Shown here in pieces: positions 29,780-33,450 of a stretch of 48,423 nt of DNA. The number at the start of each line of letters is the position of its first letter. Within the stretch, counting starts at the first letter, position 1. Under the pieces are notes generated by a model. It was not told the origin of the DNA and ran no database searches. It saw nothing but the letters and a program-made list of their open reading frames with translations. Position numbers and translations under genes: made by a program. The DNA is taken from positions 1-48,423 of the forward strand of contig JAQWSC010000012.1 of assembly GCA_029243385.1 (NCBI GenBank), written 5' to 3'. The DNA comes from Flavobacteriaceae bacterium (GTDB lineage Bacteria > Bacteroidota > Bacteroidia > Flavobacteriales > Flavobacteriaceae).

Positions 29780-31782
29780 ATTCCATTCAACATAAAATAG
29801 AAGACTTACGGTCTCAATTACATCGATACAATCACGAGTACTACACACTCGATGCACCTACAATCTCTGATTATGAATTCGACCAATTATTGGCTGAACT
29901 TCAGAGCCTTGAAAAACAATATCCCGAGTTTTATGATGAAAATTCCCCTACACTTCGAGTGGGAGGCGCTATTACTAAAAAATTCCAAACCGTTGTCCAT
30001 GATCACAGAATGTATTCGTTGGACAATTCGTATTCAAAAGAAGATTTATTGGATTGGGAAACTCGTATCCAAAAAAATATTGGAGATGAAAAAGTACACT
30101 ATTTTTGTGAGTTAAAATACGATGGGGCATCCATAAGTTTGACGTATGAAAACGGAAAACTACTTCGTGCGGTCACGCGCGGTGACGGTTCACAAGGAGA
30201 TGATGTGACACAGAATATAAAAACAATCAAAACCATTCCGTTACAGCTCACAGGTGACTACCCTAAAAAATTTGATATTCGAGGCGAAATTGTTTTACCA
30301 ATTGCAGGCTTTCATAAAATGAATCAGGAACGAATCGCTGCAGGAGAAGAGCCCTATATGAACCCACGAAACACAGCTTCTGGAAGTCTAAAACTTCAAG
30401 ACAGTGGTGAGGTGGCGAAGCGACCGCTTCAGTGTTTGTTGTATCAGTTGGTTTCGGATACTCCTATTTGTGAAACTCAAGAAGAAGGACTACAAAAAGC
30501 AAGATCTTGGGGGTTTCATGTTCCCTCAGAAGCCATTTTAGCAAACTCAATTGATGAGGTTATGCAATTCGTAGATCAATGGGATGTAAAGCGCCATTCG
30601 CTTCCCTATGAGACAGACGGAATAGTTATCAAGGTAAACCTTATTTCTAACCAAATGGAGTTAGGGTACACAACCAAATATCCTCGATGGGCTATGGCCT
30701 ATAAATTCAAAGCAGAACAAGTGTCAACCCAATTAGAGAGTATTTCCTATCAGGTAGGGAGAACTGGTGCTATCACACCCGTAGCCAATTTACGTCCTGT
30801 TTTGCTGGGCGGCACTACGGTTAAAAGAGCCTCGCTTCACAATGCAGATCAAATTGAAAAACTGGATGTTTGTATTGGAGATGTTGTTTTTATTGAAAAA
30901 GGGGGAGAAATTATCCCAAAAATTGTCGGAGTCGATGTGTCAAAGCGAACTGTTTTTTGCCAGCCCGTTGATTATATAACTCATTGTCCTTCTTGTGAGT
31001 CAGAGCTGATAAGAAGTGAGGGCGAGGCGCAACACTATTGTTTAAATAGCAACGCTTGTCCTCCTCAAATTACGGGTAAAATTCAACATTTCATTTCTCG
31101 AAAAGCGATGGACGTTGATGGATTGGGGGCAGAGACTATTGAACTTTTATTTCGTGACGGATTGATTCGCAATTATGCGGATTTGTATACGCTTCAAAAA
31201 GAAGATTTATTGCCCTTGGAAAGAATGGCAGAAAAGTCGGTAGATAATTTATTGCTTGGAGTTGAAGCGTCCAAGAAAATCCCTTTTGAGCGAGTGTTAT
31301 TTGGATTGGGTATTCGGTTTGTGGGACAAACAGTAGCTAAAAAATTGGCTGCTAGTTTTGGGTCCATTGATCGATTAGCAAATGCTACCAAAGACGAGTT
31401 GGAGGAAGTAGATGAAATTGGAGAGCGAATTGCGCAAAGTGTTGTCTTGTTTTTTTCCAACCCAAACAACCTGCAAACGATTCAGCGACTAAAAGATTAC
31501 GGCCTTCAAATGACCATTTCTGCGGATCGATTGGCTGCGCAAACCTCCTTGTTAAAAGGATCTACTTTTGTGGTTTCTGGTGTCTTCGAATCCTTTAGTA
31601 GAGACGAGTTAAAGGCTGCCATCGAAATTAACGGCGGAAAAGTTTCTTCTTCTATTTCTTCAAAAACTACTTATATAGTTGCTGGAAAAAACATGGGGCC
31701 CAGTAAGTTTCAAAAAGCTGAAAAGTTAGGAATTCCGCTTTTGTCTGAATCCGATTTTAGAGCGCTTATAGCTGTTAAATAG
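29776..31782 (+). CDS. ligA: NAD-dependent DNA ligase LigA
   Basis: Seals nicks in DNA using NAD+, in replication and repair. The 668-residue sequence has an Ia domain ([15 protein letters not shown]), the adenylation domain with [10 protein letters not shown] (K114 takes the AMP), an OB fold, a four-cysteine zinc finger ([19 protein letters not shown]...C), helix-hairpin-helix repeats (about 500-580), and a C-terminal BRCT domain (about 590-668). It begins within the ATGA overlap with prmC. Its 3' end overlaps by 8 bases the 5'-nucleotidase gene on the opposite strand. Confidence 0.97.
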
Positions 31783-32680
31783 ATAAAGGTTCTCCCGTAT
31801 TTTTTTGTGATTCTTCTAGGTAGAAATCAACTCTTCCTAAATAAAGGCCGTGACAACCTACTTGATTGACTAATACAGTTTTTCCAACGGCATTTTCAAT
31901 TTCAGTGGGTTTTTCAAGAAAGGTGTGGGTGTGTCCTCCAATAATCAAATCAATATCTTGCGTGTTTTTGGCGATTTTAACATCTGAAATCTGATTTGTT
32001 TTTGTGTATTCGTAACCCAAATGAGACAAGCAAATAACTAAATCACATTGTTTTTCATGCTTGAGGAGCTTGCTCATGTCTTGAGCGATTTCGAGGGGAT
32101 CTATATAAACAGTTTCTTTATAGGCAGATTTAATAACCAAACCTTCCAGTTGAACACCCAGTCCAAAAACCCCAATTTTCACCCCTTCTTTTTCGAAGAT
32201 TTTGTAGGGTTTGGTGTGACCGTTCATTACCGTGTTGGAAAAATCATAATTAGAGTTTACGAGATCAAACTTGGCATGATGAAGTGGCGCCAAAAGCCCC
32301 TCAATACCATTGTCAAATTCGTGATTACCAATAGTTCCCGCATCGTATTTCATCAAACTCATTAATTTCAATTCGAGTGCACCTCCGTAAAAGTTAAAAT
32401 AGGGAGTCCCTTGAAAAATATCTCCTGCGTCAAAAAGCAATGTGTTGGGGTTTTCTTCTCGGATTTTGTTAATGACCGCAGCTCGTCTTGCTACTCCGCC
32501 TTTGTTTGCTTTTTTACCAGCATCTGACTCAAATGGATCTATGTGGCTGTGTACATCGTTGGTGTGAAGAATGGTAATGTGTTTTCGCGGTTTGCTAGAA
32601 AAAACAGCGTGTCCAAAGGTAGGAGCTCCCAAAAACAAGGCCGATGCTGATGTGGTTTTAATAAAATGTCTTCGTTTCAT
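31775..32680 (-). CDS. Secreted metallophosphatase, catalytic half of a 5'-nucleotidase, with Tat signal
   Basis: A 301-residue calcineurin-like phosphoesterase matching the N-terminal domain of UshA-type 5'-nucleotidases. The metal-binding motifs appear in order: [25 protein letters not shown], and IIGGHTHTF. The N-terminus [12 protein letters not shown] is a twin-arginine signal, so it is exported folded. The family's C-terminal substrate-binding domain is absent here; it is encoded by the separate gene just upstream, whose stop overlaps this start as TAATG. Together they would release phosphate and nucleosides from nucleotides in the periplasm or at the surface. Confidence 0.9.
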
Positions 32681-33450
32681 TATTCAGCTATTTTATTGAT
32701 TACAAGTCGTTGATCAAGAGTGCTTTGAAGGGTGTCCTTTTTAGAAAAATGATCAATTAGTACAGAACGGATTTTATAGTTGGTGTAGTGAACTTCTTCT
32801 GGGTTTTCAAAAAACACCATTTGATCCCCTCCTCGGAACAAATAGTCGGAAGTAGCAACATAATAAGACTTTAAGGGATCAAATTTTTTGCCCTGAATGG
32901 TAGCATTGATTTTTTGACCAGAAATTATGACCCTAGCCCCAGCAATAGGATGTGCCTTTTGATACTTTGATAGATACGTAAAGAGTTCTTTAACTTTCTG
33001 ACCGGACATTTTAAGTACTACCACCGAATTTTCGAAAGGCATCACATTGTAGGCGGTTTTGACAGTAACAGCTCCTTTTTTAATCTGATCTCGAATGCCT
33101 CCGTAGTTAAGTAGGCAAAAGTCAATTTTGTTTTTGGTTTTGGATTGAAATAATGGGCTTACCTCTTCCATGATAGCATCTGCCATAAGATTTCCAATAG
33201 TAGACTCCATTGCTCCATCATTTCTATGCATTGTTGTTGGCGTATAACTAACGACTTCATGTATACTTTTATCAAGATTTTTGGTGTAAGGTTCTATAAA
33301 AGATAAGATTGTTGAATCTACGGCAGTATTTTTGTTGATTTCAATTCTAGTGTACTCATAATTAATAAGTTTGTTTGATTTGAAATCACAACCTAAAAAG
33401 AAGATTGTTGTAAATAAAACAATTTGTGGTTTTTTTATATAATTAATCAT
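32680..33450 (-). CDS. Lipoprotein with the C-terminal (substrate-binding) domain of 5'-nucleotidases
   Basis: A 256-residue protein that aligns with the UshA C-terminal domain. It has ESTIGNLMADAIME, LNYGGIRDQI (the substrate-contact asparagine and arginine), AYNVMPFENSVVV, and ATSDYLFRGGDQM. A signal peptide with lipobox FFLGC makes it a lipoprotein. It is translated before and coupled with the catalytic half, in the reverse of the order in a normal single-chain enzyme. The two halves therefore reach the envelope by different routes (this one by Sec/lipoprotein, the partner by Tat) and would have to join there. Confidence 0.88.
   Translation of the reverse strand: MINYIKKPQIVLFTTIFFLGCDFKSNKLINYEYTRIEINKNTAVDSTILSFIEPYTKNLDKSIHEVVSYTPTTMHRNDGAMESTIGNLMADAIMEEVSPLFQSKTKNKIDFCLLNYGGIRDQIKKGAVTVKTAYNVMPFENSVVVLKMSGQKVKELFTYLSKYQKAHPIAGARVIISGQKINATIQGKKFDPLKSYYVATSDYLFRGGDQMVFFENPEEVHYTNYKIRSVLIDHFSKKDTLQSTLDQRLVINKIAE

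Follow-up and report, generated by a model that had tools for sequence, protein, structure and literature searches.

We analysed a 48,423-nucleotide stretch of DNA from a member of the Flavobacteriaceae (contig JAQWSC010000012.1 of assembly GCA_029243385.1, positions 1 to 48,423; hereafter, the window) and found that the two domains of a 5′-nucleotidase, which form one chain in UshA of Escherichia coli, are encoded there by two separate genes, the substrate-binding half first and the catalytic half second. The genes, their order, their export signals, the conservation of their residues and their inheritance together point to a nucleotidase of UshA/CD73 architecture, most likely a 5′-nucleotidase, that probably needs both chains and whose docking, activity, tethering and substrate we infer. 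The substrate-binding and catalytic proteins are called below the C chain and the N chain, respectively, after the order of the domains in UshA.

Both open reading frames are present where the first-pass annotation, made from the sequence alone, had placed them. They lie on the minus strand, so that the C-terminal-type domain is encoded first and the catalytic domain second. The C-chain gene (32680-33450, minus strand) encodes a 256-amino-acid (aa) lipoprotein with the lipobox FFLGC, the cysteine of which is Cys21 (codon 33388-33390). The N-chain gene (31775-32680, minus strand) encodes a 301-aa metallophosphatase, which starts with MKRRHF, a twin-arginine translocation (Tat)-type motif with its arginines at R3 and R4 (32669-32674). 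The stop codon of the former overlaps the start codon of the latter in the sequence TAATG (32682-32678, minus strand), as the annotation had noted, and this junction probably couples translation of the two genes. The source genome (99% complete) contains a single match to PF02872 and a single match to the catalytic protein.

The C chain matches Pfam 5_nucleotid_C (PF02872) with 91 bits (cut-off 23.6) and the N chain matches Metallophos (PF00149) with 65.7 bits (cut-off 21.5), in agreement with the earlier assignment of the two frames to the domains of a 5′-nucleotidase. In addition, the C chain passes the model of the NAD nucleotidase C-terminal domain (PF21953; 34 bits, cut-off 27), over model positions 4-93 of 199 only, and the N chain passes PGA_cap (30.8 bits, cut-off 27). 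Every match of both chains to the NCBIfam models (UshA, NadN, CpdB-like, YfkN-like and SoxB) fell below the curated cut-off. By sequence (phmmer), the N chain is closest to the N domains of animal and Thermus 5′-nucleotidases (best 3.7e-38), and the C chain to 3ivd_A, named 'Nucleotidase' (2.7e-15), and to UshA (1hp1; 2.5e-11); the fold suggested for the C chain rests on these Pfam and phmmer matches.

We aligned 124 split pairs with 22 single-chain proteins and UshA, and use UshA numbers for residues that we take to have dimetal, catalytic, stacking and binding roles. Eight mapped positions (D41, H43, D84, N116, H117, D120, H217 and H252) are identical in the window and in all 124 split N chains, including the catalytic N119-H120-x-x-D123 of the window (32312-32326, minus strand; UshA N116, H117 and D120). 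At H43, 11 of the 22 single-chain rows have tyrosine, and the position of UshA Q254 is histidine in the window and in all 124 split N chains. Of the 124 split C chains, 122 keep R410 (R120 of the window, 33091-33093, minus strand), all 124 keep N431 and 115 keep D504. The adenine-stacking position F429 is Phe in 123 and Tyr in one (F139, 33034-33036), and position 498 is aromatic in all of them (Tyr in 106, Phe in 12 and Trp in 6; Y203, 32842-32844, both on the minus strand). The window thus has the two aromatic residues and the arginine of the UshA C domain. That the C chain kept the pocket and R410, and the N chain the metals, makes most sense if the halves meet. PMC7922932 and PMC8071527 also describe the catalytic histidine and the sandwiching of adenine.

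The N chain of the window also has a pair of cysteines, C212 and C217 (codons 32047-32045 and 32032-32030), just before the metal-binding H220. They are kept in 123 and 121 of the 124 split N chains, versus 1 and 0 of the 22 single-chain rows, and the pair occurs in the catalytic half from Bacteroides finegoldii as well. Judged from the alignment, it is a signature of the split type.

The lipoprotein nature of the binding half, another claim of the annotation, extends to its relatives: 123 of the 124 C proteins of split pairs have the aligned lipobox Cys, and a relaxed lipobox regular expression fits 107 of these. So does the Tat-type motif of the catalytic half; by regular expression, 114 of 124 split N chains have RR, 6 RK, 2 RS, 1 KR and 1 none. 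TatC is encoded in the source genome (216.7 bits), and the N chain of the window, with its twin arginine, is predicted to be exported as a Tat substrate. The surface-export signal (LES) of Bacteroidota lipoproteins, K-(D/E)2 or Q-A-(D/E)2 after the cysteine (PMC5080379), is absent after the Cys of the window (C-DFKSNK); it was found in only 3 of 123 relatives, and an acidic pair at +2 to +6 in 4 of 123. Surface exposure by the known LES is thus not supported, and a periplasmic orientation of the lipoprotein is the most likely. Since 11 of the 12 fetched single-chain Flavobacteriaceae relatives carry a lipobox (regular expression), both architectures look membrane-anchored, in keeping with a role of the lipoprotein half as the anchor.

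The proposal that the halves travel by different secretion routes stands as the usual case, given RR in 114 of 124 N chains, but this difference may not be essential. The catalytic half from B. finegoldii starts with MRRIQISF, which has two arginines but lacks the usual Phe and, read by eye, looks like an ordinary signal peptide, and a lipobox-like Cys also occurs in 20 of the 124 split N chains. Separate routes are thus common but may not define the pair, and the idea that they caused the split is weakened by the same two observations. In these 20 N chains (for example, at loci L025, L029 and L051) a twin-arginine signal is followed by the lipobox-like Cys, suggesting that they may be Tat-exported lipoproteins and that both halves may be membrane-anchored there.

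The title of the annotation implied that the split was an oddity. We found instead that it is the norm in the family. Among 120 genomes drawn evenly from the Flavobacteriaceae, with frames sorted by length and by eye, 105 have PF02872 matches; 86 have the split form, 19 only long single-chain frames and 15 neither. In the survey of gene order proposed with the annotation, 84 of the 86 split genomes have the C gene immediately ahead of the N gene, with both on one strand. Taking the first ATG of each frame as its start, the genes overlap or lie at most 15 nt apart in 71 of these 84, 16-200 nt apart in 12 and 614 nt apart in one. In the other two genomes the order is kept with ~3.8 kb between the genes (G006), or the genes lie ~122 kb apart (G080).

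The split form extends beyond the family. In a sample of 158 genomes from the phylum, also sorted by eye, 82 have a match and 34 of these are split: 15 Flavobacteriaceae and 19 from other families (2 from the same order, 8 from the same class and 9 from other classes), the C gene preceding the N gene in 19 of 19. In a larger draw, 340 of 395 genomes matched the C protein, strongly or weakly. Thirty further loci, taken from among the matches listed for this draw and partly from genomes already sampled, comprise 29 pairs of adjacent genes and a single C gene with no N gene nearby (L161, genome G509). After two duplicates (L049 and L109) are set aside, 148 distinct loci remain, of which 126 have the two domains in different frames and 22 are single-chain. 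The C gene comes before the N gene in 124 of the 126, as the annotation had read the order in the window. The other two, left out of the alignments, are interrupted single-chain genes: L022 is a Nannocystis gene in two overlapping frames, and L140 (G164, 1635-3338) has a UshA-like N and then C domain, one stop codon separating them within the same frame. The latter could reflect simple decay or possibly recoding; NCBIfam UshA-like (seleno)proteins are among the weak matches of the window. Beside the 19 split loci from other families, L140 was the twentieth short frame in the 158-genome sample. Gaps of 550-614 nt separate the genes at L092, L117 and L126, the C genes of L111 and L156 lack an N gene in the fetched stretch but have one elsewhere, and the seven loci outside Bacteroidota (L016-L022) are in single-chain order. 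Flavobacteriaceae thus usually have the enzyme in split form, which is also common in the phylum.

When each half was placed in a FastTree tree with UshA as the root, all 124 split sequences fell into a single clade that contained none of the 22 single-chain sequences. Repeated independent breakage is not the pattern in the tree of either half, and the split form is probably old and single in origin. The nearest relative, L002, has the same arrangement, its C protein being 83% identical to that of the window.

The two halves are also inherited together. A split-type N chain is missing from all 15 family genomes that lack PF02872 and from all 19 single-chain-only genomes, where N matches are confined to long frames of 469-559 aa. 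In one genus the genes are unlinked (~122 kb apart in G080 and on different contigs in G509), and both are retained together with the Tat motif and the lipobox, which suggests that the partnership of the halves is independent of the operon. Loci of this genus are L111, L157, L161, L188 and L190; in a further genome, G400, only the position of the N gene was seen.

We used AlphaFold2 to ask for the mutual position of the halves in L002, where the two genes share one frame, so that with the stop read as Gly the chains could be folded as one, with the Tat signal as linker. The joined pair gave a predicted local distance difference test score (pLDDT) of 78.6 and a predicted template modelling score (pTM) of 0.70. 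A control joined likewise, dapA-bamD from L006, gave a pLDDT of 80.1 and a pTM of 0.51, about the value expected for two well-folded domains of unknown mutual position. The difference supports docking, short of proof. In a fold search the N half of the joined model matched the catalytic domains of human CD73 and Thermus 5′-nucleotidase (Z 28); the VIA-align rows among the matches listed span residues 267-528 of the model, that is, the N half only. Assembly of the halves, as the annotation suggested, is thus backed indirectly by residue conservation, joint inheritance, retention of unlinked genes and the pTM values.

The pair resembles E. coli UshA (PDB 1ush and others; NP_415013.1) in having both domains, the eight dimetal/catalytic residues, the two aromatic stacking positions, R410, N431 and D504. 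UshA, however, is one chain with the N domain before the C domain, its start, MKLLQRGVALALLTTFTLA, has neither a twin arginine nor a lipobox, and its Q254 (His in the pair) and R375/R379 are not kept. The closest solved catalytic domains by both sequence and fold are those of CD73 and the other animal and Thermus 5′-nucleotidases (PDB 9i1h and 2z1a). Unlike the pair, the CD73 and Thermus enzymes are single chains, and CD73 has a glycosylphosphatidylinositol anchor (PMC5837971) in place of the lipoprotein partner. The 12 fetched single-chain relatives from Flavobacteriaceae (L024, L028, L042, L044, L050 and L142-L148) share the two domains and, in 11 cases, membrane anchoring with the pair. In contrast to it, RRx[FLIVWM] occurs near the start in only 3 of the 22 single-chain rows, none convincing. 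Measured in 19 genomes, single-chain enzymes are 27-35% identical to the N chain of the window. The pair from B. finegoldii (WP_007756805.1, annotated as 5′-nucleotidase, and WP_032839871.1, annotated as metallophosphatase) is like that of the window in the split, gene order, lipobox (LFTSC) and catalytic-half Cys pair, but lacks the usual Tat motif. On one B. finegoldii record labelled 'plasmid 3' (L196, NZ_OY725905.1), rplS adjoins the pair; the record may be a mislabelled chromosomal fragment.

Catalysis by UshA and CpdB lies with the N domain and specificity with the C domain (PMC7922932 and PMC8071527), and nucleotidase activity requires both native domains (PMC8071527). The isolated N-domain of CpdB almost loses hydrolysis of 3′-adenosine monophosphate but still hydrolyses 2′,3′-cyclic nucleotides and bis-4-nitrophenyl phosphate (bis-4-NPP), and its isolated C-domain is inactive (PMC7922932). 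One review (PMC8475336) contains no word beginning 'bacteroid' or 'flavobact', and among the matches listed in our literature search, which had subscription journals and preprints outside its scope, we found no description of a two-chain pair.

Under the two-chain reading, the nucleotide-binding domain would be made from the first gene as a lipoprotein, which would most likely sit on the periplasmic side of the outer membrane. The second gene, whose translation is probably coupled to that of the first, would supply the dimetal catalytic domain; in most relatives this has a Tat-type signal and would thus be exported folded, metals included. In the periplasm the catalytic half would dock on the lipoprotein, so that substrate held in the binding half reaches the dimetal site, and nucleosides and phosphate would be released for uptake. 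A more specific version, which we put forward tentatively, is an obligate heteromer, old in the phylum, whose active site would exist only once two polypeptides, usually exported by different routes, meet at the outer membrane. Association and sliding would then replace the hinge rotation of UshA (96 degrees; PMC8475336), and assembly would confine activity to the periplasm.

Several points weigh against an obligate two-chain enzyme of single origin. The basal node of the split clade is weakly supported (0.48 for the N and 0.62 for the C half), which leaves the root uncertain. The pTM comparison involves one pair and one control, with alignments of 26 and 21 rows and stops read as Gly, and AlphaFold2 may be recalling UshA or CD73. 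UshA R375/R379 are not kept in the split C chains (Asp and a gap in the window), which have a single Lys or Arg nearby instead. Finally, because the isolated N-domain of CpdB keeps phosphodiesterase activity, the N chain could act alone on some substrates. This last point, along with the different export signals of the two chains, favours an alternative in which the two proteins are only co-expressed: the catalytic one would act by itself, as a phosphodiesterase or phosphatase, and the lipoprotein would be an independent binder of nucleotides or nucleosides that hands its ligand to another machine. The absence of split-type N chains from genomes without a separate C chain, the retention of both genes where they are unlinked, R410 in 122 of 124 C chains and the higher pTM of the pair than of the control all make this quite improbable.

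The two-chain enzyme might, on the other hand, have another main substrate, such as nicotinamide adenine dinucleotide (NAD), uridine diphosphate sugars, cyclic dinucleotides or 3′-nucleotides, a view that overlaps with the one we prefer and that we consider doubtful, though far from negligible. It is favoured by the NCBIfam matches being spread over UshA, NadN, CpdB and YfkN-like models, all below cut-offs; by the NAD nucleotidase C-terminal model, which the C chain passes, although less well than 5_nucleotid_C; by the stacking residues F139 and Y203, which are between the two Phe of UshA and the two Tyr of CpdB (PMC8071527); and by the missing R375/R379. However, sequence comparison with the PDB puts 5′-nucleotidases first for the N half and, for the C half, 3ivd 'Nucleotidase' and UshA. 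That a single ushA gene was recently broken or inverted in the source genome, or that the assembly is at fault, has practically no chance of being the explanation: the order is reversed rather than just broken and is the same in 124 of 126 loci, the split proteins are one clade in both trees, and L002 is arranged alike. A frameshift or assembly break, which the annotation had excluded from the reversal alone, is ruled out by gene order and trees.

The surroundings of the pair are also conserved. The arrangement coaBC-bamD-dapA-DUF6913-[C-N]-ligA is kept in 13 of the 14 loci searched, these being all 13 long Flavobacteriaceae loci; the fourteenth, L012, is a 4-kb contig. In 9 of the 13, prmC is also near the pair. 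The gene for the DUF6913 protein lies at 33505-34029 (plus strand) of the window, divergent from the pair, and adjoins it in all 13 long relatives. We looked to coaBC, bamD, dapA, DUF6913 and ligA in the 14 loci for a hint of function, and they gave none.

Where E. coli and humans have a single-chain enzyme, the window encodes two separately exported proteins, and this version of a familiar enzyme is genuine, old and widespread. A natural two-chain UshA provides a handle on the question of domain motion, since its chains can be titrated against each other. In a 2023 catalogue of ushA-like genes (PMC10454023), five of the six Bacteroidota classes tabled (Flavobacteriia, Cytophagia, Chitinophagia, Saprospiria and Sphingobacteriia) are marked as having none. 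The catalogue required an alignment score of at least 151 and a query coverage of at least 71%, thresholds that are hard to reach for a split and diverged gene and that may be the cause of these blanks. With the split form in 86 of 120 Flavobacteriaceae genomes, nucleotide salvage and the use of organic phosphorus by these bacteria may be under-counted.

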